DNA of 44,796 nucleotides from a virus, in the IMG/VR virus record IMGVR_UViG_3300035670_000404, positions 1 through 44,796 of that record; one strand, 5' to 3'. A program made the translations under genes and the position numbers. The notes under the pieces were generated by a model. It saw only the letters and a program-made list of their open reading frames with translations, was not told the DNA's origin and did no database searches. How positions within the stretch are numbered: position 1 is the stretch's first letter; each line of letters begins with the position of its first letter. Shown here one piece after another: positions 5,804-37,477 of this stretch.

Positions 5804-7047
5804 GCGTTTTCTCCTCGTTCATCATCTCCGAACAGCGACGCGCTTTTCGTCTTGGGTTCTGTTTTCGCGCCTGGCACAAGGCATTGTGGCGATGCCCAGA
5901 GGCGTTCTTTGTGTTGTTGGCTTGTGCCGTCGATATTGCCCATGCCTCCGGTTAGGTGGCCTTTTTTATACCATTCGTAGACTCGCCAGCCCATGCTTTC
6001 CAGGATGTTGTGTTCGCCGTCGAATCCTGCGAGCACGATGCGGTATTCCGGGTCGTTGCCGTTTTTGATGCACCATTCGCGGACTTCTTCGGCGAGCTTG
6101 GTGCAGTCGCACATATAGAGGTCTGCGCTGCGGACGTCGAAGCTGTAGGGCGGGTCGATGAAGATGCCGGCCGGGCCATGTCCTTGGCGTACTGGCAGAG
6201 TCTTTGCGGCACCTCCTGTGGTAACTCGTTTCCAGTCGCCGTTGACGATGCGTACGTGGCGGATGCGGGCGGAGAGTAGTTGCATCCATCGAATGATGCC
6301 TGGCATGGTGTGGTCGTGGAAGGGGTTTGTGGAGAATATATCGCTTGCGGACGTATCGCTTGCGAAGGATATGCGTTGCACGCCGACTTCGCGCATCCCT
6401 GCGTGCTCGACGCCCTGGCCGTCGTTGCCGAGGTGCGGCAGGCCGCGCAAGACGCCTGTTCCGATTTGATCTTCGTTATCTGTATCATCTTCCCACTCGC
6501 ACGCCGGCATATAGACTGATACGATTTTGCTATCGTCGCGCAGCTCACGCCAGTCCGGCCCATACTCTCCGGCGATGTCCTTGATTTTGCGGATGCGCCC
6601 AGTCTTCGGGTCGGCAGTCCACGGCCCGCCAAGCCCGCCTATCTGGCAAGCGACACCATAGAGCCACCACCCGGCCATGACCGGGTCGCACCAGTCTGGA
6701 CTTCCGGCCAGAAGTGCGAGCGTATCTTCACTCACCCAGCGCTTCATGGCGATCTGCCGCGCTTGCTTGTCGGCTTCGGACACTGGCCAGCTCGCCGCGC
6801 GCGCCGTCTCGATCGGATACCACTGGATAGCGCGCCATGCGTTCACAAGCAGTCCATCCTTATCGCATACAGTCTCGCTGTAGTACGGGCGGTTGCATGT
6901 GTGCGGGCGGTTGAGCAAAACTGCCATGCCGCCACAGAATGGCTCCACATAATGGTGCACATCACCGATAAGCGACCACACCGTATCGGCAGCCTTCGTC
7001 TTCCCGCCGAACCACGGGAAAGGACACTTTTTCTCATCTTGTGCCAT
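5800..7047 (-). CDS. D12-class DNA N6-adenine methyltransferase, 415 aa
   Basis: PFPWFGGK at 9-16 and VEPFCGG at 34-40 match the SAM-binding region of D12 (Dam-type) adenine methylases, and IDPPYSF at 297-303 is the catalytic DPPY motif. It transfers a methyl group from SAM to adenine N6 in DNA. Compared with E. coli Dam (278 aa) it is longer, with an insert between the two motifs (roughly 85-245). It begins at ATG with GAGGAG six bases upstream. It is the second adenine methylase in the window, beside the ParB-linked one, and lies between the SF2 helicase and zinc protein genes. Anti-restriction is the simplest role, but this is inferred. Confidence 0.85.
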   Translation of the reverse strand: MAQDEKKCPFPWFGGKTKAADTVWSLIGDVHHYVEPFCGGMAVLLNRPHTCNRPYYSETVCDKDGLLVNAWRAIQWYPIETARAASWPVSEADKQARQIAMKRWVSEDTLALLAGSPDWCDPVMAGWWLYGVACQIGGLGGPWTADPKTGRIRKIKDIAGEYGPDWRELRDDSKIVSVYMPACEWEDDTDNEDQIGTGVLRGLPHLGNDGQGVEHAGMREVGVQRISFASDTSASDIFSTNPFHDHTMPGIIRWMQLLSARIRHVRIVNGDWKRVTTGGAAKTLPVRQGHGPAGIFIDPPYSFDVRSADLYMCDCTKLAEEVREWCIKNGNDPEYRIVLAGFDGEHNILESMGWRVYEWYKKGHLTGGMGNIDGTSQQHKERLWASPQCLVPGAKTEPKTKSASLFGDDERGENA

Positions 7048-7060
7048 GCATTTCTCCTCG

Positions 7061-8815: not shown

Positions 8816-8817
8816 GG

Positions 8818-9390
8818 CTATGCCCATTGACCATAGCAAGGATTCGGGAAGATAATGGCGTTGTCAACGCACCTGTGATTGATATCGCCGTCGTTATCGT
8901 CCACGGCGAGCGCGATACGGTATTGCTTGGCGAGCGACTCGAAAGCTTCCAGCTTGCCTTGCTTATTTTCGCAACAGAGCACATGGTCAACGACCGGATA
9001 TCCGGCTTTCTCCAGGTTTGCCACCGTGGCGTTGTGGAGCTCCTGGTTGCGCCTCGATACGAAGTAGACTGGCACGCCCATATTGTTGGCCGTTGCGGCG
9101 AGAGTGAGCACCTGCGCGAAAGGCGGCATATCGGCTCGTGCGCACCATTGCTTCCAGTAGAATGGATAGGTCGATTGATTCTTGACCAGGAAGCGCATGT
9201 AGTCTGTAGTGTCTATGGCGCAGTCATCGATATCCACAGTGATGCACTTCTGGCCGGTTTTCTTGTCTTGCGACAACAGGCGCAGCGCATATGCGATAGC
9301 CTGTGTGCGGAGCATGTTGCATTCTTTGCTTCGATAGTATTCAAGCGCGTATGCAAGCCTGATGACATACTCTTGGTTCTCTTTATCCAC
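8818..9390 (-). CDS. HAD-family phosphatase (class B acid phosphatase / 5'-nucleotidase-like), 190 aa
   Basis: Contains the HAD nucleophile loop VDIDD (D53, D55), a middle YFVSRRNQ motif where such enzymes carry the Ser/Thr of motif II, and a late acidic VDDNDGD motif IV. The closest look is to the class B acid phosphatase / lipoprotein e(P4) group, but with no signal peptide, so it is cytoplasmic. With thymidylate synthase and ribonucleotide reductase just upstream, a role in nucleotide dephosphorylation or degradation of host nucleotides is likely. The GTG start has GGAG six bases upstream. Confidence 0.7.
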   Translation of the reverse strand: MDKENQEYVIRLAYALEYYRSKECNMLRTQAIAYALRLLSQDKKTGQKCITVDIDDCAIDTTDYMRFLVKNQSTYPFYWKQWCARADMPPFAQVLTLAATANNMGVPVYFVSRRNQELHNATVANLEKAGYPVVDHVLCCENKQGKLEAFESLAKQYRIALAVDDNDGDINHRCVDNAIIFPNPCYGQWA

Positions 9391-11502: not shown

Positions 11503-12270
11503 CTATTCTTCGCCAACCATGTTGCGCAGCTGTTCAGTCGTCCACGTTCTGTCGCTCATATCGCTTCCTCTTCCATACGCGAGCTCGACAACTCGATGGG
11601 CGAGGTGCCAGTCTTTGCCGTTGACGTGGTAGTCGTCGCTCGTGTCAATGCACCCGCCGGCGGCGATGTGGTCGCCTGTCTTGCGCGCCAGGTCATGCGC
11701 CATCATCTCGACCAGCGCTGCCAGGCCGAACAGATTGTTGAAAGCGGCGTTGATAGCGTCGCGAGCTCGCCAGTGGAGATACATGTTCAGCTCATACGGG
11801 TCTTTGCCGGAAAGCTCGAACCCGATATGGCGCAGGCAAGGGATATGCGTTCCATCTCCGTCGCCGATGCTGTCAAGCGCTGGGTTGGCGAGCGCGACGA
11901 TAGCCTTATGGCTTGTGCGCTTTCGCGCCAGGCAGCGCAGCGCATATTTGAACTGGTCCACAGTATGCGTATCGTCGGCCCATTCGAATATGCGTTCGTG
12001 ATATGTGTATTCCCACGCTCGTTGACTGCCGAACATGATCTCGTTGCGATATTCTAGAAGGTCTTCCGGCGTGCAGGTGAATCCCCTGTGCACCATGGGT
12101 TCGGCAAGCATGCGCTCGATACGGATAGTCATCTGGGCGTTGCGGCCGAATGGCGTCCCTTCGCGCCAGTATCGGCCTGGGTACGCTTGTCCGAGGTCGC
12201 GCAGGGCGATGATGCTGTTTTCCCACGCTTCAGGCAGCGTGGAGCCGTGAGCGTAAAGGCATGGTTTCAC
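11503..12270 (-). CDS. thyA: Thymidylate synthase (ThyA-like), 255 aa
   Basis: Matches the ThyA fold family: catalytic Cys in IPC145LRH, then R168 and D171, then N179. The spacing of the last three equals that of E. coli R166, D169 and N177. Asn at the N177 position fits dUMP; dCMP hydroxymethylases carry Asp there. The residue after the catalytic Cys is Leu instead of the usual His, and overall the protein is divergent. A longer reading frame extends upstream, but the GTG at 12270 has AAGGAG seven bases before it and follows the resolvase stop by two bases, so it is preferred. It acts with the ribonucleotide reductase just downstream in dNTP supply. Confidence 0.8.
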   Translation of the reverse strand: MKPCLYAHGSTLPEAWENSIIALRDLGQAYPGRYWREGTPFGRNAQMTIRIERMLAEPMVHRGFTCTPEDLLEYRNEIMFGSQRAWEYTYHERIFEWADDTHTVDQFKYALRCLARKRTSHKAIVALANPALDSIGDGDGTHIPCLRHIGFELSGKDPYELNMYLHWRARDAINAAFNNLFGLAALVEMMAHDLARKTGDHIAAGGCIDTSDDYHVNGKDWHLAHRVVELAYGRGSDMSDRTWTTEQLRNMVGEE

Positions 12271-12272
12271 GA

Positions 12273-12716
12273 TCAGACTCCTTGTCCAGGTAACATGTCC
12301 CAGCATACCGTCAACATCGCCAACGCATCTGCTGTCGCTAGCGTTACGTTGACTGCAGGGTATGTGGCTTTCATGAGCGTTTTGATATGATTCTTGCGCT
12401 CGCTTTTCGGCATGCTCTCGATGCCGAGCTTTGCTATCCATGCTTTCGGTTTGCAAAGGGTGTATGGGGTACAGAACGCCTGTAGCGCACCAAGTATGAT
12501 TCCAACGCCGCGGGCGAACGTTGCACTTGCCTGGGCGTTGTTCCCCTTCACGTGATACCCGACGTCTTCGACGATGACGTATGTTATGTCTCTTCTTGCT
12601 TCTCGGATCTGCTCGACGGGATTTTTTAGCTTGTCTGCATAAACGCTACCGTCCCTGGACCTCCATGCTATGCCTCCGTTTGCCCCAGGGTCGATCGCGA
12701 TAAGCGTGATTGGCAC
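12273..12716 (-). CDS. RuvC-like Holliday junction resolvase, 147 aa
   Basis: RNase H-fold motifs of the RuvC family are visible: IAIDPGANGG (D9), the second-strand VIVE50D, and a late acidic TADALAML helix. Such phage enzymes resolve branched DNA before packaging. GTG at 12716 is selected because GGAGG lies six bases upstream; the longer frame from 12734 has no ribosome site and begins inside a hairpin. It sits between the clamp gene and thymidylate synthase. Confidence 0.8.
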   Translation of the reverse strand: MPITLIAIDPGANGGIAWRSRDGSVYADKLKNPVEQIREARRDITYVIVEDVGYHVKGNNAQASATFARGVGIILGALQAFCTPYTLCKPKAWIAKLGIESMPKSERKNHIKTLMKATYPAVNVTLATADALAMLTVCWDMLPGQGV

Positions 12717-19250: not shown

Positions 19251-19360
19251 GCACTATACTCTCTATCGGCCGTTTGTCAAATAAAAAAAGTGTCGGTTTA
19301 TGTCGATTTCTCCAAAGTGACGTATTTTACTGGACTTCAGAGCCTAAAAATCCGTATCGA
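19251..19360 (-). promoter_or_regulatory. Duplicated sigma70 promoter, copy 1
   Basis: On the minus strand TTGACA (19280-19275), a 16-base spacer, and TATAGT (19258-19253), with an A/T tract directly upstream. About 100 bases are shared with the copy at 19856-19960, including a conserved block around GTGACGT and TTTTACTGGACTTCAG upstream of -35 that may be an activator site or operator. It drives the 101-aa ParB-like gene and the genes after it. Confidence 0.8.
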
Positions 19361-19855: not shown

Positions 19856-19960
19856 GCACTATACACTCTATCGGCAAGTTGTCAAATAAAAAAATAGACG
19901 GTTGTGCGTTTTTCGCTGAAGTGACGTGTTTTACTGGACTTCAGGGCTAAAAGTTTTCGA
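19856..19960 (-). promoter_or_regulatory. Duplicated sigma70 promoter, copy 2
   Basis: On the minus strand TTGACA (19885-19880), 16 bases, TATAGT (19863-19858), with an A/T-rich UP-like tract. Upstream, CTGAAGT and ACTTCAG (15 bases apart, about 19915-19943) form an inverted repeat that could be an operator. It starts transcription just past the terminator of the late operon. Confidence 0.8.
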
Positions 19961-19980: not shown

Positions 19981-20011
19981 AAAAAACGCCGTCGGAAACG
20001 ATCCAACGGCG
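19981..20011 (-). terminator. Rho-independent terminator of the late operon
   Basis: On the minus strand a 9-bp stem (CGCCGTTGG with CCGACGGCG, one G-T pair, 7-base loop) is followed directly by TTTTTT (19986-19981). It lies 32 bases beyond the stop of the last glycosyltransferase gene. Confidence 0.88.
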
Positions 20012-20043
20012 CCCGCAGGAGGCAGCTGCGGCGAGGAGAACTT

Positions 20044-20775
20044 CTACGCTTGGCTCGGCCCTCCAGGATCACCCCAAACGCTTGGAGCCCATGGAGTTTG
20101 CCTTGCCATATTGTGCCCATGCATGGCCGGATTGATATCGTCTCTGCCCCAGTGGTCGCGCCGCGCGCGCCGGTGCTGCGGACCTGCCGCGTGCGCGATG
20201 TGGCAGACCATGAACGAGCGCGCCACATCCGCATATGCGCAAGCTCGCCGATAGGCGTCGCCGTCCTCGACGCCATAGCCAACCATACGCTCATCGTATC
20301 CGCGCATGGAAGCCCACGCGCCCACAGGTAGGCCTAGCGTGCCCCTGGTTTGATTCCACGGCACCGACTGCTCCATGTGTGCGCGCGCCTGCTCGTATGA
20401 GCTGCACATCATGTATGTGGGACATACGCCGCGGCGCTCGCCGATGCTATCGAGCATAGGCTGCAGCGCGCCGGCAAACCAGATATCCGGATCCGTCTTG
20501 AGTATCGCGACACATCCGGCCTCGATAGCGGCGCGTATGCCAAGATTGCTTGTCCATGAGAGGCAGAATGGCCGCTCAGCCGAAAAGTCGTACTCCGCGC
20601 GCACCACAGTAAGCCACCTGGGTGTATCGAGCACATCGAGGCGCGCCGCGGTATCAGCGTCGGCCACAAGCCACGCATGCGCGCCCGAGCTCGATATCTC
20701 GCCAGCGTTCCAAGCTAGCCAGTCGGACACGCGCTGCATAGGTAGCCGATAAGCTGTGGTAACTATTCCACACAT
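20044..20775 (-). CDS. GT-A fold glycosyltransferase, single module, 243 aa
   Basis: A stand-alone copy of the module found twice in the preceding fusion protein: IVTTAYR opening strand, TSNLGIRAAIEAG helix, metal-binding D95-P-D97, then GYDERMVGYGVEDGD (like the C-terminal galactosyltransferase motif of the GT2/GT7 type) and a CHIAHA segment. It should transfer a sugar from a nucleotide donor to an unknown acceptor, in the cytoplasm as no signal or membrane segment is seen. ATG at 20775 overlaps the fusion gene by 13 bases; a frame running to 20802 is less likely. It is the last gene before the terminator. Confidence 0.72.
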   Translation of the reverse strand: MCGIVTTAYRLPMQRVSDWLAWNAGEISSSGAHAWLVADADTAARLDVLDTPRWLTVVRAEYDFSAERPFCLSWTSNLGIRAAIEAGCVAILKTDPDIWFAGALQPMLDSIGERRGVCPTYMMCSSYEQARAHMEQSVPWNQTRGTLGLPVGAWASMRGYDERMVGYGVEDGDAYRRACAYADVARSFMVCHIAHAAGPQHRRARRDHWGRDDINPAMHGHNMARQTPWAPSVWGDPGGPSQA

Positions 20776-23306
20776 GCCAAGCCCCATTCGTCTCTTGCCC
20801 ACGCACCGGCGATAGCTTTGTTGTGCGCCACGCGCAACGGGTTGAAGCTCCGGTTGTGCCTGTCGGCTCGGTTGTGTTGTGCTGATTCGCTATGCGCGAT
20901 ATGCACCACAGATACATCTCTGCTGATAGTTATGCCTGCGTCTTGCGCACGTTGAAAAAGATCGCTGTCTTCGTATCCATAGCCTACCATGCGCTCATCG
21001 TATCCGCATAAAGTAGACCAGTCGACCCATCGCATAGCAATACAACCCTTGCTTTGATACCAAATTTGGCCGCCATTGCCTTGCGTATTTGCCATCCTGT
21101 AAACAGGGCATACGGCATGGCAATTCCGAACGGATCCAACAATATCGAAAAATTCGTCCGACAGCACAAGGTCGATATCCGCCTTGCAGATGGTGCCACG
21201 GCCAACTCGTCTGATGCCGTAATTGCTTGTCCTGGAAAGCGAAAACATCTCCATTTGAGACGGATAAACAATCTCAACAACCCACGCCGGCCAGCTGTTG
21301 TCTTGCAAAGCTTTGTCAGTAACCAGGACAAGTCTTGCTCGGGCGGTTTCCATGACTTCTGTGTTGATATCTACAAATCTCTTAACAACTCGATGGTCGA
21401 TGCGGTATGCCGATACCACAACTGCGATATCTGAATAATCCCTCAGCCCCCAATGCTCTCCAGTCGGCTGTGCATGATCGAGCTGCCGATTGTTGACGAA
21501 GTTCTCTGGGTTGAACCCGCTGTCGCGGTTCCAGTGATCGATCCTTGGGTTTTGGCGATCGAATTCTTTTTGAGGCGTGCCTTCGATATGCGCGATGTGG
21601 TAAATAGCTTTGGCTCTCTCGACAGAATATCCACAGCGCTTGATCTGTCGCATGAGGATGCCATCGTCACACCCATAGCCCACACATTCCTCGTTGAAGT
21701 GCGCCGCTTGCCAGCATTCGGAGCGCATGCATATGGTTCCAGTTGCGTTCGGGGCGTCGACATAGCCTTGTTCTCTGTCCTTGTAGCTCGACGCCATACG
21801 ATACATCGGGATTCTAGCGGAGTGAGATTTCACTCCGAACATCCATCCCAGTCCGCCATCGAACACCATGTCAGCATCTGTCTTCACGATAACGTCATGC
21901 CCGGCTGTGATAGCATGGCGAATACCAAAATTGCTGGTCAGCGCAAGATTGAACACAGGCATTTCACCGGGATAAACTAGGCACCTAGCATACTCTGGCA
22001 CATCGTATTGTCTGTCCGCCACAACAAACACTTTGGTGCCGGCCGCCAGGTATTCTGATTCATTCCATGCAAAGTGCTCGCGCAGTCGCTTCTCCGGGAT
22101 TTTGTAATGGACAAAAACAACTGCGCGCGAGTCTCCTGGTTTGATATATGAGTCAACAACGTGAAGCTCGTTCATGCGCACCCTGATCAAACGCCTGCCA
22201 GCGGCGCATGCTCCAGCGTCGGTAATAGCTCCAAGCTTATCGTGCCGAACGATATTCAAGATCCCGACTTCTTCTTTATTGCGATTGATTGGAACTTCCA
22301 GGATGGCTTCGTTTGGATGCAGCGATAGAGCCTCTTTCACCGGCCCACATAAAGTCTGATACGGCTTCAGTGCAACGCAGAAATAAGCGTTCTTTCTCGT
22401 CGCTATCGAGTATGCGTCGCTGGCGTCCTGCGCCACATACACCTTGCCCACGTTTTCATGATGCCTGATCCATGACGGGCTTGGCTCTCCAATGCAGACG
22501 ATAAGCAGACAGCAAGAGCTTGATTCGGAATTTACGGCTTCGAAGACAGGCTCTGCGCAATGCGCCTCGGCCTGCGCTGCTATCTCCGGCACGAAAGAGC
22601 TAATCTTGTTGTGCCTCGTTCCACATGACAAGCAGCGCTCCGGGGCGGTATCTAGCATGCGCCGCCCAGATATGCTGTTACGGATGTTGCGCCAGCGGTC
22701 AACGATATCGGACAAGTCCGAAGTCTTGACGTTTCCGATACCTACCTCACCGAGCCAATCATGACAGCACAGGTGCACGTTGCCGTAGTAGTCAACGACA
22801 AGCTCGACGAAAGGCCTTTTGCACGGCGCAAAACCGTTGTTCCGTGGGATGTGTAGGCGAGCGTCAAACGCCGCCTTCATCACTTTCAGATTCTTGGCAT
22901 GAGACGATATCAAACCAATCTGCGGGGCGTATTGCGAGCCGTAGTCGGTGACCATTACATAGTCGTGCGCCTCGATACACGCCGGGTTGATATCGATACC
23001 GTGACCGCCGTTTGTCCACAGCACAAACCTGGCTTCAGGTACGCGCTCTTTGATTTCCTTGGCAAGTATAAGAATGCGTTCCTGGCTCAACAGAGGCTCG
23101 TTGTAGTAGTGCCAGCCGATACAGCCTCTGAATCCGTGCCGCATATACATTTCTGCGGCGATATCGACGATCTCTTTATCGGTCAACGGGCCGCTGGTAT
23201 CGAGTAGCCTGTAACGATCTGCATGCTTGTTTGGACATGCAGGATGAACGTCTCCGAGCTGGCATTTGTCGCTTATCTCGAAAATCAAGAACTGCGTCAG
23301 ATTCAT
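20763..23306 (-). CDS. Atypical radical SAM/SPASM domain fused to two GT-A glycosyltransferase modules, 847 aa
   Basis: Residues 1-240 form a radical SAM-like unit: an unusual cluster motif C15-x5-H21-x2-C24 in place of CxxxCxxC, GWHYYNEPLL (64-73) as the SAM-binding strand, WTNGG (97-101), and a SPASM-type Cys set C162, C180, C181, C225, C228. Residues 262-393 are an unassigned domain. Residues 395-620 and 625-845 are two related GT-A modules with DAD at 477-479 and DID at 710-712, TSNFGIR/TSNYGIR, and VGYG(C/Y)(D/E)D motifs. ATG at 23306 has GGAGG eight bases upstream and overlaps the preceding radical SAM gene (ATGA); the frame to 23348 is not needed. It likely couples a radical reaction to glycosylation; the substrate is unknown. 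Confidence 0.72.
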   Translation of the reverse strand: MNLTQFLIFEISDKCQLGDVHPACPNKHADRYRLLDTSGPLTDKEIVDIAAEMYMRHGFRGCIGWHYYNEPLLSQERILILAKEIKERVPEARFVLWTNGGHGIDINPACIEAHDYVMVTDYGSQYAPQIGLISSHAKNLKVMKAAFDARLHIPRNNGFAPCKRPFVELVVDYYGNVHLCCHDWLGEVGIGNVKTSDLSDIVDRWRNIRNSISGRRMLDTAPERCLSCGTRHNKISSFVPEIAAQAEAHCAEPVFEAVNSESSSCCLLIVCIGEPSPSWIRHHENVGKVYVAQDASDAYSIATRKNAYFCVALKPYQTLCGPVKEALSLHPNEAILEVPINRNKEEVGILNIVRHDKLGAITDAGACAAGRRLIRVRMNELHVVDSYIKPGDSRAVVFVHYKIPEKRLREHFAWNESEYLAAGTKVFVVADRQYDVPEYARCLVYPGEMPVFNLALTSNFGIRHAITAGHDVIVKTDADMVFDGGLGWMFGVKSHSARIPMYRMASSYKDREQGYVDAPNATGTICMRSECWQAAHFNEECVGYGCDDGILMRQIKRCGYSVERAKAIYHIAHIEGTPQKEFDRQNPRIDHWNRDSGFNPENFVNNRQLDHAQPTGEHWGLRDYSDIAVVVSAYRIDHRVVKRFVDINTEVMETARARLVLVTDKALQDNSWPAWVVEIVYPSQMEMFSLSRTSNYGIRRVGRGTICKADIDLVLSDEFFDIVGSVRNCHAVCPVYRMANTQGNGGQIWYQSKGCIAMRWVDWSTLCGYDERMVGYGYEDSDLFQRAQDAGITISRDVSVVHIAHSESAQHNRADRHNRSFNPLRVAHNKAIAGAWARDEWGLACVE

Positions 23307-24283
23307 GCCCAGTTCCTCCGACAAGCGCACAACCTGCATTCCGCACACATGGTGTCTTCGCGCTCAACGCTTTTGCGAAATACCTGCGCTTTTTCCCCGA
23401 TCCATATCGAACCCAAGTCTTCCGTCTTCAAAGAACCAACAGGGGACGAACGGACTCTACAGCACGGAAGAACATCGCCGCTAGCAGTAATAAACGCCAC
23501 TTCATGCGGAACCAAGCAAAGTGTCGGCGCCGTTACCACGTTGTTGCGGAACTGCTCCACAGGCCAGCCTATCTCTGCTGCGGTGTCTGTGGTGACCTCG
23601 ATACGCAGGCCGTTCCGCCGCCCATATTCCAGCACGTCGTCAAGGTCGCGCTTGAGAGATTTGCGGATACCACACAGGCTTTCCGCGTCCAGGTGCCGCA
23701 TCTCTGGCAGATCGGGCCACACATGCAGATCGCTGACCTGCAGACAGTCTGCACCCCACGCCACGGCCTTCTGTGCGACTTCTCGCAGCTGATGCCAGTT
23801 GTGCTGCATCGCTACATACTCAATAGTCAGCGCAGGCTTCTTGCCCGAGTAAGCTCGATAGGCCGAAAGGTTGGTATCGAGCCTGGAGAATGGAGCGCCG
23901 CGAATGCGCTCGTACGTCTCCCCGATACCGTCGCAAGACACTTTGACGCGCGCCCAGTATCCTGGCGCCGAGCACATGATCTTGAGTAGTTCCGGCGTGA
24001 GCAACTGCCCGTTGGTCTGAAATTCGACAGCTCCTGACCGTGTCATAGCTCCTCTAAAAATCTTACCCCAGTTGGAATGAGTCAAAGGCTCTCCGTGCCC
24101 AGACAGTATAACCAGAGGCCTAGACTCTTTCATCTTTCCGAGGAGAAGTTTGAATACATCGTAACTCATCTCCTCGCCTCGATATGCCGCGCTGCGAATC
24201 TGACAGTGGTAGCAGCGCAGGTTGCACTTGGTTGTTATCTCACAATGCAAAACCTTCAGATGCGTGAAATCTTCTATTTTCAT
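23303..24283 (-). CDS. Radical SAM/SPASM enzyme, 326 aa
   Basis: Canonical radical SAM signature C20-NLR-C24-YH-C27, SAM-binding GHGEPLTHS, TNGQLL, and a C-terminal SPASM region with C-x-VPHE, GDVLPCCR and MCAECRLCAC for auxiliary iron-sulfur clusters. SPASM enzymes commonly modify peptides or, in some clusters, sugars and cyclitols. ATG at 24283 is chosen for AGGAGG five bases upstream, giving a four-base overlap with the GT29-like gene. It is immediately followed by the atypical radical SAM fusion, so the two may act as a pair. Confidence 0.85.
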   Translation of the reverse strand: MKIEDFTHLKVLHCEITTKCNLRCYHCQIRSAAYRGEEMSYDVFKLLLGKMKESRPLVILSGHGEPLTHSNWGKIFRGAMTRSGAVEFQTNGQLLTPELLKIMCSAPGYWARVKVSCDGIGETYERIRGAPFSRLDTNLSAYRAYSGKKPALTIEYVAMQHNWHQLREVAQKAVAWGADCLQVSDLHVWPDLPEMRHLDAESLCGIRKSLKRDLDDVLEYGRRNGLRIEVTTDTAAEIGWPVEQFRNNVVTAPTLCLVPHEVAFITASGDVLPCCRVRSSPVGSLKTEDLGSIWIGEKAQVFRKSVEREDTMCAECRLCACRRNWA

Positions 24284-24876
24284 ACCCACCTCCTGCCGTC
24301 CCATACTCCGTATCTCATAGCGGAATATAAAGCCTTCTCCGCCTCCGGCGAATGTGCTAATATAGCGTCCGGTTCGTCACTCCAATAGTGGTGCTGTGGA
24401 GCCTCGAAAAACGAAAATCCGTATGTATCCACGCCGTTCAAGTTGGGGTCTGGTAGACGGTCAAAGTATAGCCAAGCCAAAAATAGAATGCCAGCCGAGC
24501 GAATCAGCACCCTGTCGATAACCGCCCACGGTATCAATGACATATTGCCCGTGCGCATGTATCTGGCTATCTGTTTCCAGTCCGGCCAATCGTGCTCTTC
24601 TTGCGGCGCCATGTTGAGTATAAAGCGTTCGTCAAATACAGGAGTTGTACAATACGTATGGCAATACATGCTGATGTCGCGCGCCCTCACATCAGGATAT
24701 CCGTTATATATCCAATGCGTTGTTTTTACCCCGTAGTCTTCTCGATATGCATCCGATATCTCGTAGTTGTTGCAACGCACTACGACGTCATGCGAGTCTA
24801 TCTCTGCGCCTTTTCCACGACCTATCTCGTTCGGGCCGTTGCCAACAATGGCTATGCTCAATTCACGCGATAGCAT
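24280..24876 (-). CDS. GT29 (sialyltransferase-like) glycosyltransferase, 198 aa
   Basis: All four sialylmotifs can be traced: L, IAIVGNGPNEIG...GAEIDSHDVVVRCNNY (8-38); S, IRSAGILFLAW...NGVDTYGF (125-153); motif III, HHYW (162-165); VS, H175-x4-E180. In animal GT29 enzymes L and S bind CMP-sialic acid and the acceptor, and the VS His is catalytic. Here the protein is a short soluble core with no membrane anchor. The donor may be sialic acid or another nonulosonic acid; no CMP-sugar synthesis genes are in view. ATG at 24876 follows GGAG and overlaps the upstream gene by 14 bases. Confidence 0.75.
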   Translation of the reverse strand: MLSRELSIAIVGNGPNEIGRGKGAEIDSHDVVVRCNNYEISDAYREDYGVKTTHWIYNGYPDVRARDISMYCHTYCTTPVFDERFILNMAPQEEHDWPDWKQIARYMRTGNMSLIPWAVIDRVLIRSAGILFLAWLYFDRLPDPNLNGVDTYGFSFFEAPQHHYWSDEPDAILAHSPEAEKALYSAMRYGVWDGRRWV

Positions 24877-25537
24877 GGGCGAACTCCACTATTTTCTTGA
24901 ACGCCGCAAACGCTCTCTCCCGGGCCGTCTCCAGGTTGAACCAAGGCTGCTTCCAACACGGGTCGGCAAACTTCCCGCGGTGTCCGACCAACACCACTTC
25001 CCGGCCTAGCAGAGACGCCCAATACGCCCCATGATAGCTCGACGTGATGACAGTCTCGGCGCTTGCCAGGAATGATATCGCATCCTCCATGCTTATACAA
25101 GTATTGGATTTCTTCGGACTGCCTGGTTCGCCAGGCAATGGCAGTATATCCACATTCTCATACCAGCACCGCTCATGCCTTGTCTCATACTGTCTGTCGA
25201 ATAGGTCGCTCATGCATGAAGGGCACGGCACTGCATCCAGTCCATGTCTCCACATAACGCTGTGGCTCATGTGCTCTTCTATGTTCCGGCCAACTCCAGC
25301 GTAAAGCACTCTTTTGTGACGATCGAGCTCGGCGCTCATGAACGGATACCATTTGGAATCTGGAGCCAGACCGCCGCCCACGACAATACTGTGGAAGCCC
25401 GACAGGTCGGTATGTTCCGCCTCGCAACGGTCGAGGCATAGGCATCTGGCGTTATCGAACTCAAACCATAACGGCCAGCCGCTGTGGCGGTCGCCAACGT
25501 TGTTTGAGCTCAAGCGCCATAGAAATGCGGTCGTCAC
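24863..25537 (-). CDS. Polysaccharide pyruvyl transferase-like protein, 224 aa
   Basis: Shows the family pattern of a GT-B-like fold: SSNNVGDRHSG at the N-terminus, SIVVGGG around residue 50, and the C-terminal TSSYHGAYWASLLGREVVLVG nucleotide-side motif. Family members add pyruvate ketals to surface sugars, but close homologues can act as glycosyltransferases. At 224 residues it is shorter than typical members (about 300-380), so parts of the acceptor domain are reduced. GTG at 25537 follows AGGA; start and stop both overlap neighbours, making it part of a coupled cassette. Confidence 0.7.
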   Translation of the reverse strand: MTTAFLWRLSSNNVGDRHSGWPLWFEFDNARCLCLDRCEAEHTDLSGFHSIVVGGGLAPDSKWYPFMSAELDRHKRVLYAGVGRNIEEHMSHSVMWRHGLDAVPCPSCMSDLFDRQYETRHERCWYENVDILPLPGEPGSPKKSNTCISMEDAISFLASAETVITSSYHGAYWASLLGREVVLVGHRGKFADPCWKQPWFNLETARERAFAAFKKIVEFAHAIA

Positions 25538-25794
25538 TTGCTTTCCTCGATACCAAGCTTATCGCACTCTTTCTGAACCAGTTTGGACATAATCATATGG
25601 GCTTCGCATGCGTCGTCTGCGTCTTCGCATATGGGTCCAGAGAACCCGCACTCGCATACGCACTGCATACCAACAGACAAGAAAAAAAGCCCTTCCGTGT
25701 CTTCATATCCTTCAGACAGATCCTCGTCATCGCACGGCTCTATAGCCTCGATAATGGATATGGCGCCGCCGCAGTAATAACAAGTCAGAGCCAT
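25534..25794 (-). CDS. Small Lar-like zinc protein, 86 aa
   Basis: CYYCGG near the N-terminus and CVCECGFSGP in the middle, followed by a helix with AHM..., recall the restriction alleviation (Lar)-type zinc fold, although the central acidic stretch (PCDDEDLSEGYEDTEG) is not typical. It might modulate a host nuclease, or support the cassette that follows. ATG at 25794 has AGGGG upstream. The assignment is tentative. Confidence 0.5.
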   Translation of the reverse strand: MALTCYYCGGAISIIEAIEPCDDEDLSEGYEDTEGLFFLSVGMQCVCECGFSGPICEDADDACEAHMIMSKLVQKECDKLGIEESK

Positions 25795-28006: not shown

Positions 28007-28963
28007 CTAGCTCCCACTCGGCGTCGCCGCGTTGGTTACCACAAGACCGGCGTTCAGACCGAGCAGCGCGAAGTTGCCGGAAGGGTAAACGGTCGAGACA
28101 TAGACGCCTTTTACCCTGCGCTGCAGACTAGACCCGTCGCTAGACTCACCCTGCAATGCCCACAAGTATTGGTGCCCGAGCTTGCCGCCAGTTACTGTAA
28201 TCAATTCGCTTGGAGTGCCACCAGAACCTACTCCGCCCATGCCTTGGAATGTAGGAAGATCACTCACAGTTTGGTTCTGCCGATACGAAAAGCGGAATAC
28301 CACCTGCGTCGGGTCAAGCGTTGTCAACGGGGGATCTATCGAGTAACCAAGGAACAGCATAGAGCCGGCCGGAAACCCCTTCCATGATGCGTTATTCACG
28401 TGCTTTCTGATGCTGCCCCACACCGCTAGGTTGGCTACCACATCGTCATAATCGAGCCACGTCATACATGTGAACTCGCCGCTTGTATCGAGCACGTCTA
28501 CGCCATCCACTTTCCCGTCTTCTCTCACCCCTATCAGGTTTGAGTTCACAGGCGCCTTCTCTCCATACGCCACCTGCGAATAGCATACCTCGATATGGGC
28601 GTTTTCGTCTCTGTCTGCCCATGTCCATTTCTCGTCACCCGCGCGCGGGTCGCCTGGCTTCAAGCGACTCTTGCTATATGTCACAGTCACCACATAACAC
28701 AGCTCGTCTTGCCGCTTGTACTGGCGAGAGACGACCTTCTCGACAACCTTCATCTTGTCTTCTTGTGCACCTGTCTGATTTGGATATTCCTCACCTCGAT
28801 CAGGGATACTCTCATTCGCCCCGAGCTCGTTGATACCGGTCGCCGTCAGCGCCGCATATGCGTTGGCAACGCCGCGCACGACGTATTTCTCTTTGAGCGT
28901 GGTGCCCTCATCGTTCTCGACGCACTCCACGTCTGTCTCTTGTTTGTAGACATAGACAACCAT
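28007..28963 (-). CDS. Putative minor tail protein, 318 aa
   Basis: Unrecognised, beta-rich protein directly after the tape measure gene, where distal tail or baseplate proteins are normally encoded. It has an acidic N-terminus (ETDVECVENDEGTTLKEKY) and no membrane segments. The ATG overlaps the tape measure stop region. The function is inferred from position only. Confidence 0.55.
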   Translation of the reverse strand: MVVYVYKQETDVECVENDEGTTLKEKYVVRGVANAYAALTATGINELGANESIPDRGEEYPNQTGAQEDKMKVVEKVVSRQYKRQDELCYVVTVTYSKSRLKPGDPRAGDEKWTWADRDENAHIEVCYSQVAYGEKAPVNSNLIGVREDGKVDGVDVLDTSGEFTCMTWLDYDDVVANLAVWGSIRKHVNNASWKGFPAGSMLFLGYSIDPPLTTLDPTQVVFRFSYRQNQTVSDLPTFQGMGGVGSGGTPSELITVTGGKLGHQYLWALQGESSDGSSLQRRVKGVYVSTVYPSGNFALLGLNAGLVVTNAATPSGS

Positions 28964-30567
28964 CAGTCGAACCCTCCCCCGCCCATAACGTTTTCAAGGA
29001 TAGACTCGACTGCCGTGGCAGTCCGCTCTTGAACTGATAGCTGCTTCTGCATCACATCGCCGATGTGCCCACCGCCGAACATGCCGGCAGCGCCACGCGC
29101 GCTGAACGTCCCGGTCACCTGCTCGGGCGTGGCTGCGGGCGGTTGCGTCCCGACGCCTCGCATCATATCCATCAGAGACTTCGACTTTCCGTTTATTCCG
29201 GCGGAAAGCGCAGACGCTTGCGCTGAAAGCGCTGCAGGCTCTGGCAGCGCTGCATATTTCTCGATAACGTTGCGCGCCACCTCGTCGTTGATTTGGTCAA
29301 CCTCCGCCTGCGTCAAAGATTTTCCACCTCGAGCCGCCTCAATTTGCCGGCGATCCACCTCTGCCTGTTGTTCCTCGAGTATCTCCGCCTGCATGCCTGC
29401 AGATAGCAGCGCGTCGCCTGCCCGCGTGTTGACCAACAGAGACTGCAGCGCCACCCAGGCATCCTTGACGCGCATGGTGGAGCCGAACAAGGCGAGCATG
29501 CGGTCAACCAGACTGGCTATCGCAGCATTCGTTTTGTCGAACCCTACAAAGATGCCAGACACCACATAAGCAAGCGCCGCAAGCGCGATTGTGGCAGCTA
29601 TGACAGGTATGACAAATGGGGCCATAGCCGCGATGGCTGCGCCGAATGCAGGTATGAGCGTCGCCGTCAGGAACGTGGACACAGATGTGCCGCTGAATAT
29701 AATCGCTGTGGCCACGGCAGAGACAACCGTTCCGAACGCCAGAAGAGCCGCGCCAGCAACTGCTGTGGCGCCAACGATCCACCGGTTACGGTCCACGAAC
29801 TTCGTCACCGCACCGATGAGAGAAGCGAGATGCTTGACCACAATCTCAACGACCGGCGCCAGCGCGTTGCCTATAACGTTGGCCACGCCCTTGACTGCAT
29901 ATGCCAAGTCCGTCATGCCGTCAACCAGCGCCGCCCCGTTGGCCGCCATCTCCGGCGTGATAACTCCGCCGAGCTCGCGAACCCTGTCATTCAAAGCGCC
30001 GCCGTTCGCGCGCCATTCCTTGAACATGGGTATGAGCATGGTTCCAGAACGACCGAAAATACGCATGGCATACGCGGCCTGCAGAGCGGGATCCTCCAGG
30101 TTGGCGATAGCTATCCCGATAGTCTGCATCCTGTCTGCCACGCTCTGCTTTGATAGTTCGTTCATGGACAACCCAAGGTTGTCGAATACCTCGGCGAACA
30201 TTTTTGATCCGCTGGCAGCCTCTGTCATAACCCGACCCATGTTGCGCACGCCTATCTCCACAGCCTTGATATCCGCCCCGCTGCGTTCTGCAACAAAGCC
30301 CAGGGTAGATAGCTGGTCAGCGGCGATACCTGTACGCAGAGACGCCTTATCAATGGCGTCGCCGGCCTTGGCGAAGTCAAGCACAGACTGTTGGATAAAC
30401 CCTAGCACGGCTTTTCCGGCAGACGACAACGCCTCGCCTATCTGGGATATGTCGCCGGCGAACTTCTTGACGCTCTCGCTTGCGGCGTCAAGACCGGCTT
30501 TAGCTCCGGCGTCGCGCGCGCCGATCTCAATCATAACGCGGCTCAGTACGTTGCTTCCAAGAGCCAT
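28963..30567 (-). CDS. Tail tape measure protein, 534 aa
   Basis: The N-terminal ~190 residues follow the phage tape-measure pattern (GAKAGLDAASESVKKFAGDISQIGEALSSAGKAVLGF..., ...AYAMRIFGRSGTMLIPMF). Long hydrophobic helices follow around 260-350 (ATAVAGAALLAFGTVVSAVATAII; FVIPVIAATIALAALAYVVSGIFV), as usual for this family. It sets tail length during assembly and is ejected with DNA. At roughly 0.15 nm per residue, 534 residues predict a tail near 80 nm, short for a siphovirus. It follows the chaperone pair, the standard order. Confidence 0.85.
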   Translation of the reverse strand: MALGSNVLSRVMIEIGARDAGAKAGLDAASESVKKFAGDISQIGEALSSAGKAVLGFIQQSVLDFAKAGDAIDKASLRTGIAADQLSTLGFVAERSGADIKAVEIGVRNMGRVMTEAASGSKMFAEVFDNLGLSMNELSKQSVADRMQTIGIAIANLEDPALQAAYAMRIFGRSGTMLIPMFKEWRANGGALNDRVRELGGVITPEMAANGAALVDGMTDLAYAVKGVANVIGNALAPVVEIVVKHLASLIGAVTKFVDRNRWIVGATAVAGAALLAFGTVVSAVATAIIFSGTSVSTFLTATLIPAFGAAIAAMAPFVIPVIAATIALAALAYVVSGIFVGFDKTNAAIASLVDRMLALFGSTMRVKDAWVALQSLLVNTRAGDALLSAGMQAEILEEQQAEVDRRQIEAARGGKSLTQAEVDQINDEVARNVIEKYAALPEPAALSAQASALSAGINGKSKSLMDMMRGVGTQPPAATPEQVTGTFSARGAAGMFGGGHIGDVMQKQLSVQERTATAVESILENVMGGGGFD

Positions 30568-32987: not shown

Positions 32988-33143
32988 TCATCCTCGCTTT
33001 CGTTGGGATTGCTTCCATTGCGAAACGGCAACAGCCATGCGCTGCGCAATATCAGGATACTCTCTCGCCATGCTCGGCGAAGACATAAACCGCTCAATGA
33101 ACGCATCTCTGCTTTCACCGCTATGCGGCTCCGGCATGGGCAT
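32988..33143 (-). CDS. 51-aa protein with a conserved GESRDxFIxRFM...R.A...SQW motif
   Basis: Reads MPMPEPHSGESRDAFIERFM, then a segment ending AQRMAVAVSQWKQ. The pattern KPxxGESxxxFixRcMs...Fpd..qR.Av..sqW recurs in many phage proteins, often as a tail on the prohead protease or as a separate small gene; its function is unknown to me. Here the usual Cys residues are replaced by Phe and Val. Its ATG overlaps the stop of the 105-aa gene (TGATG) and its TGA ends two bases before the next ATG. Confidence 0.7.
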   Translation of the reverse strand: MPMPEPHSGESRDAFIERFMSSPSMAREYPDIAQRMAVAVSQWKQSQRKRG

Positions 33144-33460
33144 CAGTCGACCTCCGTCCCCATCGAAAGCGCGCCAGTCATCCGCCGCGCAAGATCGACA
33201 TCATGAGGCATGACCGATGCGATAGCCAGGCACAGCCACAGCTTGGTTATCTGCACAGCCTCGATCTTCCTCTGCACGTTGTCTGTACACAGTTTAGCAG
33301 GCATGGGCGGCAATTGCAAAGAATCGACTGCGATTTTGAGTTCTCCACTGGGCAGAAGCCCGATGCGTGGCACCGAGACTCGGCCGGCCACGAGTGGGCT
33401 ATTGCAGACTGAAGCTATGAGCGACTTGACAGTATCGACATAGCCATAGTCTGCATTCAT
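33143..33460 (-). CDS. Hypothetical protein, 105 aa
   Basis: Starts MNADYGYVDTVKSLIASVCNSPLVAGRVSVPRIG. A mixed alpha/beta soluble protein with no family I recognise. ATG at 33460 has GAGGAG six bases upstream and overlaps the stop of the lipoprotein gene (ATGA). The open frame continues far upstream to 34036, but that part is shadow of the two genes before it. Confidence 0.55.
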   Translation of the reverse strand: MNADYGYVDTVKSLIASVCNSPLVAGRVSVPRIGLLPSGELKIAVDSLQLPPMPAKLCTDNVQRKIEAVQITKLWLCLAIASVMPHDVDLARRMTGALSMGTEVD

Positions 33461-33714
33461 CGGCTGCTCCTCGCGTCCGGCTTCAGCTCCGGTTCCAGGT
33501 CGCTCGGCCGGTCGATCACCACAAACCCCGCCGGAACAACTACTCTTCTCGACGGCCCACCGTTCATCGGCCGAACCAGTACACTCTGGTCTTTGGCAAG
33601 TTGCACCGGTGTCTGATTCGCCTCTAGATATCTGCCCGGACAACATCCTGCGGCGCACATGGTCATGCATGCGCCGGCGCATATCGCTATCAGCCATCGG
33701 CAAAGGCTCCTCAT
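33457..33714 (-). CDS. Small lipoprotein, Rz1/o-spanin-like candidate, 85 aa
   Basis: N-terminal MRSLCRWLIAICAGACMTMCAAGCC is a signal sequence ending in a lipobox-like AAGC. The remainder is hydrophilic with Pro and Val strands (PVQLAKDQSVLVRPMNGG). Small lipoproteins beside membrane proteins in phage late operons are often outer-membrane spanins, which would imply a Gram-negative host; here this is only an inference. ATG at 33714 has GGAGG eight bases upstream. Confidence 0.55.
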   Translation of the reverse strand: MRSLCRWLIAICAGACMTMCAAGCCPGRYLEANQTPVQLAKDQSVLVRPMNGGPSRRVVVPAGFVVIDRPSDLEPELKPDARSSR

Positions 33715-33729
33715 CACAGTGCCCTCCAA

Positions 33730-33987
33730 TTACTCCAGCGACCGCGGCAACTCCGGCTCCGACTGCGCCGGCAGCTGCGCCGGCTGCCCGAAAGGGACTG
33801 ACGCAACCTGCCCGATCGCCGAGCGCAAAGCCGCCAGTCCACCGAACCCTAGAAGGTACAGGACGAATTCGTAAATGCCGTCTGGAATCAGCGCTAGCTG
33901 TGGAATCATACCTGCCTGGCCTGCCGCCCGCATGCCTAGCACAACAACGGCAGCACTCGCACATAGGTACGTTTTCCATCCGCTCAT
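33730..33987 (-). CDS. Small membrane protein, holin candidate, 85 aa
   Basis: Two hydrophobic segments (TYLCASAAVVVLGMRAAGQAGM, about 6-27; IYEFVLYLLGFGGLAALRSAI, about 38-58) and a Pro/Glu-rich soluble C-terminus. Size and topology fit a class II-type holin or another small phage membrane protein. ATG at 33987 follows AGGAGG. It is the first protein gene after the tRNA. Confidence 0.55.
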   Translation of the reverse strand: MSGWKTYLCASAAVVVLGMRAAGQAGMIPQLALIPDGIYEFVLYLLGFGGLAALRSAIGQVASVPFGQPAQLPAQSEPELPRSLE

Positions 33988-34004
33988 AGTCTGCCTCCTT
34001 TATT

Positions 34005-34078
34005 TGGTTGCGGGGGCGGGAATCGAACCCGCGCATCTGGCTTATGAGGCCAGCACGCTACCGCTGCGTCACCCCGCG
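34005..34078 (-). tRNA. tRNA-Met (CAT), initiator-type
   Basis: A 74-base cloverleaf on the minus strand: acceptor CGCGGGG with CCCCGCA, D stem ACGC/GCGT, anticodon stem CTGGC/GCCAG around loop CTCATAA (anticodon CAT), T stem GCGGG/CCCGC with TTCGATT, discriminator A and encoded CCA. The first pair is C1-A72, unpaired, which is the hallmark of bacterial initiator tRNA and excludes an ordinary elongator or Ile2 assignment. Anticodon-stem pairs 29-31 are all G-C, though 31-39 is C-G instead of G-C. Position 11-24 is C-G where bacterial initiators have A-U. It sits between the peptidase-like and holin-like genes. Confidence 0.9.
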
Positions 34079-34972: not shown

Positions 34973-37477
34973 TCAGTTGCCCTGCATGATAACCCAGTTG
35001 CTTCCGTCTGACACCAGCGTCGCCCACTTACCTGCCGTCGCTGCGAGAATGGCAGTTCCGGCGCTGCCGCCGACAAGAGGCACAACGTTGCTTGCGTTGC
35101 TGATGACTTCGTTTGCCGTGATAGTCTTGATCATAATTTCGCGACCGGTGAATGAGCTTGCGGCCGGAAGCGTCACCGTGCAGGTGCCCGCATAGTTAAC
35201 GATGATCCAGTTATTGGTGGCAGCAACTGTATGAGTTGATCCGGTTACAGAAACAGGAGCGTTGCGCGCCAAGTTGTATAGCGCCTGAATCGTTCCGGCG
35301 TCCGTTATACGAACAACTTCTGCACTCGTCGTAGACGCCTTTGGAGTGGTGTAGAACCTGATCTCGCAACCGTTGTTAGTAGCAGACCAAAGCTCGGAAG
35401 CCACAAGGTAAAATCCACACTTCGCTCCGGTATATCCAACCCCAGTATGCCCAAACCCAAGTACTCCTCCCATAACAACCGTCGTTGGCGTTGCTCCACC
35501 AGATGCGCTAGCTCGGTAAGTTTTGAGAACAGGGTTTGTGCTTCCGCTATCGCTATTGGTGTAGATCTTGTATGAAGGGGCGGCGCCGGTTATTTCTATG
35601 TCCCCGTTGCTATCAACCGCGAACACCTCGACACCGTCGCTATCCTTGGCAGTGATGCAGTCGGTAGATCCGTCGTTGGTCGTCGCCTTTACGAACGAGC
35701 CAGACAGCGTACCGCCGTCCCCAGCGTCGCCGGTGTGGTCGTGGTCGATAAGCGGCGCGGTCGCGATAAACCCGCTCGGCAAGCTCGACGCCGTGCGATA
35801 GTCCACATACTCCTGGAACTCACCATTCCCGCGGAATATCACCTTGTAGAGCAGCTTGATTTCGGGTACCAGGTTGAGACCCGCCAGCGCAGGAGGAGTC
35901 TCTGCCCGCGCCGCATTCAGCGTTCCGTATGCCGCGGCGGCCTGCGTTGGGATGATGTAAATCGGACGATCCTGGTCCAGCGTGGCATAGTACCAATACG
36001 CAGCGTATTCGTTAACGCCGACATTCTTGAGCGTATAATCATCCGTATCGAGCCATTGCGGTTGGCCGCTAGTCCCGGTATACGGCAAAGTTCCGTTTGC
36101 CCATGTGTAGACACCGCTGCTAACCTGATATGCGTATCTGCATGTAGTGCTTTGCGGTATCTCCTGGAAAATATCCTCGTCTGCGATATAGCCAGTCTCG
36201 ATCTGCAGGAGCGCATCATTGGCCGCGTTCGGATAGGTCAGATCGAGCCCGTTATAGTACCTGGTACCAATAGTCAAATGCGCGTTCTTGTGCCATTCCA
36301 GATCCCGGCGGAATGTGTGCTTCTCATTCTGGATGGCGCCGGCAGAACCGTTCCACCACACAATCGCGACAGGTACCTCGGTGAGGATATCCCACGCCGT
36401 CGCCTTGGCTTTGAGCGTGCCGGCCGAGCCGTCAAAGTAGAAGAAATAGATCGTATTGTCGGCCAGCGTCACATAACTATCCAGGTCACAGGTGATGGCG
36501 TTTGCGGTGCTGTATCGCGCGCCTTTATACCAGTAAGTATTGGTATCCGCCGCGATAGTAAAAACGTGGGTTGAATCGTTGAAGCTGAACGCGCCCATAC
36601 TCTCAATGCCATGCAGATAATCGGCTCCGACGTTAACCGGGGCGTGGGCGGTGTAGGTCTGCTGCGTATGCTCGTCGAGCTCCACCTGGTTGTCAGGCGA
36701 TACATAAATGGAGCCGTTCCCGTTGTTCTTCACAGCGATAGTGCCGACCCTGCACCGGAAGTTCGGCGCGCTAGGTTCGGTCGACGTCCACCCGCCGGCC
36801 GTCGTCGGAGATACCCAGATATTGTCGCCAGCTGTATATGAGTTGGTATCGAGACCGCGCACAAGACCACGCGTCGTCACGATACCGGAAGACCCATCGT
36901 TGATATTCATAGTGGCGACGCCGATAGTTCCGTCAAGGTTCGCAGCGCTGTTGGCCTGTGCCTTGGTCACCCGGATCCGCTGCCCACTAGAACCAGAGAT
37001 GCGCACAACATCGCCATTCAGGATGTTGGCACCTGAATCGTTCGATACCTTGATGCTCGTCTCTTGCCCGAGCTGATACGTCACATCGGTGTAGGCAGTG
37101 TCAACCTCGATAGTTCCATCCGTATCATTCCAACGCATCCGCCCAGGAGTATGCGTCGCGCTCAGGTCGCTGGCAGTAGTGGCAACGTCAACAGCCTGCG
37201 CAGCCACTACGCCCTCGCTAGAACGCAACGCGAGACGGCTCGCTGTGGCCGCTGTGGTGCCAATAACCCCGCCGTCTCCGGCGTCGCCAGTATGGTCATG
37301 GTTCGGCACCGCATCGCTGATAGCGATATCTTCCCATGCGTTACCAGCTGCATTCACCACATAGTATTTATTGTCCGTTGTTAGATAGTAAATGGTGCCT
37401 TTCAGACTAGCACTGGCAGAAGGCAGCGCGTCGACAGGTGTCGAGCTCCTATCCGGCATCCATTCTGTAATAGCCAT
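34973..37477 (-). CDS. Long fibre/appendage-type virion protein, 834 aa
   Basis: A beta-rich, Gly/Thr/Asn/Ala-rich protein with the signs of a phage fibre. Two copies of HDHTGDAGDGG (near 75-90 and near 585-600) probably bind metal or mark repeat junctions. The C-terminus (GTCTVTLPAASSFTGREIMIK...WATLVSDGSNWVIMQGN) is a widespread phage fibre/collagen-like end motif. It probably binds receptors or decorates the head or neck, as it sits among head genes rather than after the tail tip. ATG at 37477 overlaps the upstream stop (TGATG). Confidence 0.7.
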   Translation of the reverse strand: MAITEWMPDRSSTPVDALPSASASLKGTIYYLTTDNKYYVVNAAGNAWEDIAISDAVPNHDHTGDAGDGGVIGTTAATASRLALRSSEGVVAAQAVDVATTASDLSATHTPGRMRWNDTDGTIEVDTAYTDVTYQLGQETSIKVSNDSGANILNGDVVRISGSSGQRIRVTKAQANSAANLDGTIGVATMNINDGSSGIVTTRGLVRGLDTNSYTAGDNIWVSPTTAGGWTSTEPSAPNFRCRVGTIAVKNNGNGSIYVSPDNQVELDEHTQQTYTAHAPVNVGADYLHGIESMGAFSFNDSTHVFTIAADTNTYWYKGARYSTANAITCDLDSYVTLADNTIYFFYFDGSAGTLKAKATAWDILTEVPVAIVWWNGSAGAIQNEKHTFRRDLEWHKNAHLTIGTRYYNGLDLTYPNAANDALLQIETGYIADEDIFQEIPQSTTCRYAYQVSSGVYTWANGTLPYTGTSGQPQWLDTDDYTLKNVGVNEYAAYWYYATLDQDRPIYIIPTQAAAAYGTLNAARAETPPALAGLNLVPEIKLLYKVIFRGNGEFQEYVDYRTASSLPSGFIATAPLIDHDHTGDAGDGGTLSGSFVKATTNDGSTDCITAKDSDGVEVFAVDSNGDIEITGAAPSYKIYTNSDSGSTNPVLKTYRASASGGATPTTVVMGGVLGFGHTGVGYTGAKCGFYLVASELWSATNNGCEIRFYTTPKASTTSAEVVRITDAGTIQALYNLARNAPVSVTGSTHTVAATNNWIIVNYAGTCTVTLPAASSFTGREIMIKTITANEVISNASNVVPLVGGSAGTAILAATAGKWATLVSDGSNWVIMQGN

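Follow-up and report, generated by a model that had tools for sequence, protein, structure and literature searches.

The cassette and its genes

The window analysed here is the complete IMG/VR virus record IMGVR_UViG_3300035670_000404, 44,796 bases classed as linear, which comes from an uncultivated tailed phage and in which no terminal repeat reaching 12 bases was found. On its minus strand, five consecutive genes (g1 to g5) span positions 25537 to 20044 and overlap successively by 14, 4, 4, and 13 bases, so that the run of coupled open reading frames (ORFs) given in a preliminary description of this DNA is present in full. Our main subject is g4, which fuses a radical S-adenosylmethionine (SAM) domain carrying an altered cluster motif to two glycosyltransferase (GT) domains, and which, judged by its sequence, appears to belong to a largely viral, previously undescribed family with the motif CX5HX2C. 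The starts of g1 to g5 were picked from Shine-Dalgarno sequences, ATGA junctions, and homologue N-termini, and those of g4 (23306) and g3 (24283) are consistent with both homologue N-termini and strong Shine-Dalgarno sequences. The features of the cassette and of the ORF preceding it are as follows.

25534-25794, minus: g0, an 86-residue cysteine-rich ORF, translationally coupled to g1 through a 4-base GTGA overlap
24863-25537, minus: g1, 224 residues, weakly like polysaccharide pyruvyl transferases (PF04230)
24280-24876, minus: g2, 198 residues, GT29 sialyltransferase-like (PF00777, E = 8e-13)
23303-24283, minus: g3, 326 residues, canonical radical SAM/SPASM protein (CNLRCYHC)
20763-23306, minus: g4, 847 residues, a BtrN-like twitch radical SAM domain, a linker, and two GT-A domains
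23235-23264, minus: cluster motif of g4, CQLGDVHPAC (C15-X5-H21-X2-C24)
23094-23111, minus: HYYNEP of g4, at the position of the SAM-binding GGEP motif and aligned to HFYGEP of BtrN
22623-22823, minus: twitch region of g4, with Cys162, Cys180, Cys225, and Cys228 (PF13186, BtrN alignment)
21471-22127, minus: GT-A domain 1 of g4, with DAD at residue 477 and GYGCDD at residue 543
20766-21434, minus: GT-A domain 2 of g4 (Glyco_transf_7C), with DID at residue 710 and GYGYED at residue 775
20044-20775, minus: g5, 243 residues, a free GT-A protein, paralogue of both GT domains of g4
19981-20014, minus: intrinsic terminator after g5, a hairpin with a U tract

The fusion protein g4

The description of g4 as a radical SAM-GT fusion holds for the fusion itself, and the earlier account had overlooked both the second GT domain and the non-canonical cluster motif. 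The usual radical SAM cluster motif is CX3CX2C (PMC9012708), whereas g4 carries CX5HX2C at this position. Pfam recognises the N-terminal domain as SPASM only (3e-8), with no match to Radical_SAM, and assigns Glyco_transf_7C (3e-11) to the GT region. The N-terminal domain has the partial TIM-barrel and GGEP-like motif of the radical SAM fold, and its twitch region agrees with the cysteine spacing of a twitch/SPASM auxiliary cluster (C-X(9-15)-G-X4-C and CX2C), with C162-X12-G175-X4-C180 followed by C225-X2-C228. Both GT domains, as well as g5, contain the DXD and G[YW]GxD/ED motifs of GT-A enzymes, which are common to K4 chondroitin polymerase, other bifunctional GT-A copolymerases, and GT7 beta-1,4-galactosyltransferase. 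In tandem, the two GT domains are similar to K4 chondroitin polymerase (E = 2e-16), but identity to the K4-type copolymerases is about 13%, and the two GT domains of g4 differ from these in being recent paralogues that are fused to a radical SAM domain. The free protein g5 is 34-35% identical to the GT domains of g4 and is matched at E = 5e-88 by a GT profile that itself includes the g5 sequence; its match to Glyco_transf_7C (E = 0.0017) is below the cut-off.

A full-length relative of g4 is found in the viral contig L002, with 41% identity over 873 columns. The linker (residues 248-393, about 22565-22128) is common only to these two proteins, is partly structured, and is possibly a degenerate domain. 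The AlphaFold model of full-length g4 has a low predicted TM score (pTM) of 0.39, with parts of its linker disordered; from this model the single domains alone were used.

A histidine in the radical SAM cluster motif

A search with the three GT domains led to the viral contigs L002, L003, and L004, and a search with the radical SAM domains of these led to 23 viral contigs (L002-L004 among them; 24 with the window) and five bacterial ones. The search patterns were [GA][WF]HYYNE and D[YH][YF]GNVH. Because an exact HYYNE pattern drove the search, the invariance of HYYNEP is biased and relatives without HYYNE were missed; the Cys/His/Cys motif lay outside the pattern, so that the invariance of its histidine was not selected. 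All 26 aligned sequences share C15, H21, C24, and P25 without exception, the motif reading CX5HX2C in 23 and CX5HX3C, with an extra residue between the histidine and the last cysteine, in three. H66-P71, C162, G175, C180, C181, and D183 are also invariant throughout the 26, while in the CX2C pair the first cysteine is retained wherever it is aligned and the second is tyrosine in L028. A re-scan with the larger alignment returned the identical 23 contigs.

When viral contigs were searched by pattern with single proteins (g4, g3, and the product of 28007-28963), no relatives were found, the method being one that catches close relatives only; nothing similar to the locus DNA, g4, g1, or the radical SAM proteins of two relatives was found among 50,697 phage records, nor anything similar to g4 among 72,556 plasmids.

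The loss of one of three normally obligatory cluster cysteines could mean that the HYYNEP domain no longer carries out radical chemistry and has become a scaffold that binds SAM or a metal in support of the GTs, with only these and the tailoring enzymes being active, and pseudo-SAM/SPASM proteins are indeed an annotated class (TIGR04347). A dead site should drift, however, and here the Cys, His, and Cys of the cluster motif, HYYNEP, and the first three auxiliary-cluster cysteines are invariant among radical SAM sequences that are only 27-44% identical to the copy in the window. We consider the scaffold explanation improbable.

Relationship to BtrN

When a 26-row profile of the radical SAM domains was compared by sequence with the Protein Data Bank (PDB), BtrN was the sole match (E = 1e-18). 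In the alignment the histidine of the family falls on the middle cluster cysteine of BtrN, NEP falls on GEP, and the twitch cysteines coincide with cysteines of the BtrN twitch region. The AlphaFold model of the g4 radical SAM domain (mean predicted local distance difference test score 93.1, pTM 0.91) is likewise closest to BtrN among PDB folds (E = 6e-10, TM score 0.64); SpeY ranks fourth, and MoaA and viperin are also among the best folds. The g4 domain is, judged by its sequence, distantly related to BtrN, a sugar dehydrogenase. The reaction of BtrN is the oxidation of a secondary alcohol on an aminocyclitol, in which its auxiliary cluster probably serves as electron acceptor (PMC9012708). 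The twitch radical SAM dehydrogenases BtrN (butirosin) and SpeY (spectinomycin) share with g4 the fold, the GEP and TNG motifs, four auxiliary-cluster cysteines in register, and a sugar or cyclitol context. They differ in having CX3CX2C where the g4 family has CX5HX2C and HYYNEP, and in belonging to antibiotic gene clusters, whereas the g4 family is mostly found in phages, fused to or beside glycosyltransferases.

When 291 clostridial-class genomes were searched with a profile, one distant relative (L055) came up besides the seed, and it retains a canonical CX3CX2C motif (CNRKCSYC). As far as seen, the altered motif is therefore confined to the HYYNEP group, and the clostridial protein suggests by its sequence that the histidine variant may have derived from a canonical BtrN-like ancestor. 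The L055 protein, which is BtrN-like, also has HFFGEP and adjoins a gene that by eye is glycoside-hydrolase-3-like. A histidine is known to bind the K1 cluster of NifB, the SAM cluster of which keeps the canonical three cysteines (PMC7145814).

Glycosyltransferase partners and neighbouring genes

The preliminary description had proposed that a dedicated system would be unlikely if homologues of these genes occurred only as unrelated single genes. Instead, the radical SAM domain is fused to or beside a GT in 24 of 25 non-redundant records, mostly in regions of phage structural genes, and the GTs are of at least five types (L028 is the sole non-redundant record in which none was found). Taking as neighbouring the next gene or one within about 0.65 kb, a GT7-like enzyme is fused in the window, L002, L010, L011, and L012 and neighbouring in L003, L004, L005, L006, L013, and L016; a GT2_4/GT92-type enzyme is neighbouring in L007, L016, L022, L023, L024, L027, and the L017-L019 group. 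The neighbour is a GT2 enzyme in L025, GT25 in L026, and GT17 in L021, and fused GT2 matches, weak to clear, occur in L020, L031, and L032, with a further one beside the domain in L030.

The suggestion that the five genes recur together was not borne out: the exact set was absent from the other records, the pyruvyl-transferase-like gene was seen in the window record only and not in related records, GT29 occurs in two of the 19 other viral records (L004 and L016), and a close relative of g3 lies directly behind the radical SAM-GT fusion in one, L012. Other enzymes accompany the core pair. Sulfotransferases lie near it in L002, L003, L004, L005, L010, and L016; a second, canonical-type radical SAM gene lies within about 2.5 kb in seven of 20 viral records; and a B12-binding radical SAM protein in L016 (12041-13579), with related proteins in L022 (6752-8188) and L023 (5486-6925), is found near the same pair. 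In L004, the interval between the large terminase and portal genes contains further enzyme genes at 6398-9337, namely HAD_SAK_2, sulfotransferase, GT29, RraA-like, and TylF-type O-methyltransferase genes.

The remaining cassette genes

Among the remaining family calls of the preliminary description, GT29-like, radical SAM/SPASM, and free GT-A stand and pyruvyl transferase falls short of its curated cut-off. The match of g1 to PF04230 (PS_pyruv_trans; E = 4.7e-5) is restricted to 40 residues (147-186) and scores 23.9 bits against a cut-off of 25.3, and since it is this short and lies below the curated profile threshold for polysaccharide pyruvyl transferases, the name is a guess; no PDB relative of g1 was found. 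The sequence of g2 has the sialyltransferase motifs of GT29 (L, S/III, and VS), with L recognised by profile, HHYW at residue 162, HX4E (HSPEAE) at residue 175, and a weak match to motif S. It matches structures of mammalian ST3Gal1 (E = 4e-7), with which it shares L-motif homology, HHYW, and HX4E, and differs from it in being only 198 residues long and phage-borne.

The third gene, g3, has CX3CX2C together with matches to PF04055 Radical_SAM (2e-15) and PF13186 SPASM (2e-11). A role for the cassette as a defence system was considered and set aside as unlikely, the only sign of it being a weak viperin-like match of g3 to the pVip model (3e-7, 28 bits, partial) at the level expected between radical SAM families; g4 had no match to this model. 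The weak similarity of g3 to many peptide maturases, along with the small cysteine-rich ORF g0 ahead of the cassette, might point to the making or modification of a small ribosomal peptide, that is, a glycosylated ribosomally synthesized and post-translationally modified peptide, as many SPASM proteins mature peptides. Yet no conserved small ORF was noticed beside the core pair across the loci among ORFs of 60 residues or more, and the radical SAM domain of g4 has no N-terminal peptide-binding extension and is nearest to a carbohydrate dehydrogenase, so that we regard a peptide product as very unlikely. Searches of Pfam, PHROG, and NCBIfam gave no match for g0, which is probably co-transcribed with the cassette; it carries CxxCGG...CxCxCG and by eye recalls Lar-type zinc ribbons.

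Genomic setting and timing

All recognised genes of the window are on the minus strand. Same-strand virion genes precede the cassette, as the preliminary description had stated in placing it at the end of the virion operon, and are listed here together with one gene of the early region:

42728-44788, minus: terminase
40629-42239, minus: portal
38648-40795, minus: fusion of head-maturation protease and major capsid protein (phrog_4523, E = 2e-67)
34973-37477, minus: fibre-like protein
28963-30567, minus: tape measure
11503-12456, minus: thymidylate-synthase-like protein (PHROG, 6e-11), in the early region

A tRNA-Met (CAT) gene at 34005-34078 overlaps the start of a same-strand ORF (33143-34036) inside the virion operon. 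The strong terminator that had been described at the end of the cassette is confirmed by folding (-26.8 kcal/mol over a 56-nt stretch, z = -3.5). A simple pattern scan overlooked this hairpin, perhaps because its stem reaches into the T tract through G-U pairs. Beyond it, two promoter-like sites (19885 and 19280, minus strand, 11 of 12 matches each) open the next transcription unit, and a 25-base repeat, TGAAGTCCAGTAAAAYACGTCACTT, lies just upstream of each (19919-19943 and 19315-19339, minus strand); the repeats are probably operators or enhancers of early transcription. The early region that follows contains Sak4-like, clamp, thymidylate synthase-like, ribonucleotide reductase, helicase, primase, and methyltransferase genes. 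A foreign origin of the cassette was considered from base composition and set aside, the difference in GC content (54.2% against 55.9% overall) being uninformative.

Glycosyltransferases and radical SAM enzymes feature in some phage DNA hypermodification pathways, and this might, with the thymidylate-synthase-like gene in the window, suggest that the cassette makes sugar-decorated bases. The replication genes are far from the cassette, however, the sialyltransferase and sulfotransferase partners and the terminase and portal neighbours do not fit such a pathway, and no relative of the thymidylate-synthase-like protein was found in the PDB at E <= 0.01. DNA hypermodification accordingly seems to us a highly improbable function.

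In the related phages, which otherwise share little similarity with the window, the cassette again keeps company with virion genes. It lies between the large terminase and portal genes in L003, L004, L005, L011, L012, and L013 (the portals of L003 and L004 having been called from similarity and position) and after tail genes in the window and L002. Within about 5 kb there are portal, head, or tail-sheath genes in L019-L023, of which L022 and L023 are tail-sheath-bearing phages, and in L027 there is a baseplate gene. Since the cassette occurs among structural genes in phages that are otherwise dissimilar, we take it to be a recurrent guest of phage structural operons.

Proposed function

We propose, with moderate confidence, that the cassette is a dedicated late pathway for the editing and transfer of sugars, most likely one that decorates the virion. 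If this is the case, then g1 to g5 would be expressed late and would build and edit a glycan. The N-terminal domain of g4 would act as a BtrN/SpeY-like twitch radical SAM enzyme that abstracts a hydrogen from a sugar, with its SAM cluster held by Cys-His-Cys and its auxiliary cluster, held by four cysteines, serving as an electron sink, and a ring carbon would thereby be oxidised or epimerised. The fused pair of GT-A domains would transfer two sugars, much like bifunctional chondroitin-synthase-type polymerases, and g5 would add a further one. A CMP-linked nonulosonic acid supplied by the host would be added by g2 and perhaps a pyruvate ketal by g1, while g3 would perform a second radical step, and the capping enzymes would differ between phages. 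A virion protein is the likeliest acceptor because many unrelated phages carry the core cassette amid their head and tail genes and because none of the cassette proteins has a clear membrane segment. The genes themselves, their coupling, their families, the recurring pairing of radical SAM and GT, and the relationship to BtrN are seen in the sequences; enzymatic activity, His ligation, the sugar substrate, and the virion target are what we infer for this pathway.

The principal rival is that the cassette alters a host surface glycan, such as lipopolysaccharide, capsule, or a teichoic acid precursor, late in infection, and thereby blocks superinfection or frees progeny from receptor-bearing debris. 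Surface polysaccharides are the usual targets of GT29, pyruvyl transferase, sulfotransferase, and GT2-type enzymes, and the tandem GT region of g4 resembles capsule polymerases. The cassette contains no flippase or Gtr-type (serotype-conversion) membrane protein, however, no clear transmembrane segment was found in any of the six proteins g0 to g5, and superinfection exclusion would call for early expression. We view modification of the host surface as less likely than decoration of the virion.

Several points weigh against decoration of the virion by a sugar-editing pathway. A place near virion genes may be a matter of late timing and not of a virion target, and no structural gene was identified nearby in L007, L010, L016, L024, L025, and L026. 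No genes for donor-sugar synthesis were recognised in the part of the ORFs of the window that was scanned. The likeness to the BtrN fold is moderate, and the same fold is used in peptide chemistry elsewhere. Co-evolution of the radical SAM and GT domains, tried by correlating their distance matrices, gave a correlation that is weak and not significant (Mantel r = 0.27, p = 0.07).

Mycobacteriophage-encoded enzymes O-glycosylate virions on the capsid and/or tail (Freeman et al. 2023, cited in PMC11652166), and the cassette would resemble these systems in encoding its glycosylating enzymes in the phage. As described in PMC11652166, they are without radical SAM, sialyltransferase, or sulfotransferase proteins, and the virion target of the cassette is a predicted one. 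Marine T4-like phages also carry radical SAM genes, one genome having as many as 12, and what we draw on from that account reports no radical SAM-GT fusion or altered cluster motif among them (PMC5332604). The earlier remark that no described phage system with this combination was known agrees with the open-licence literature searched, in which neither the combination nor the altered cluster motif was found.

Implications

Every part of the cassette has known relatives, and there is a substantial chance that its cofactor chemistry is new. The fullest form of our proposal, in which a mainly viral radical SAM family with a His-ligated SAM [4Fe-4S] cluster edits sugars together with fused GTs to produce an undescribed phage-particle glycan, is put forward tentatively, as a possibility. 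If histidine is indeed a cluster ligand, the definition of a radical SAM cluster motif would change. Standard profiles overlook the HYYNEP radical SAM family, and the pairing of CX5HX2C with HYYNEP offers a searchable marker for phages with glycan genes inside the head-gene operon. In g4, radical chemistry and glycosyl transfer would be joined on one polypeptide, as a discrete and cloneable system.

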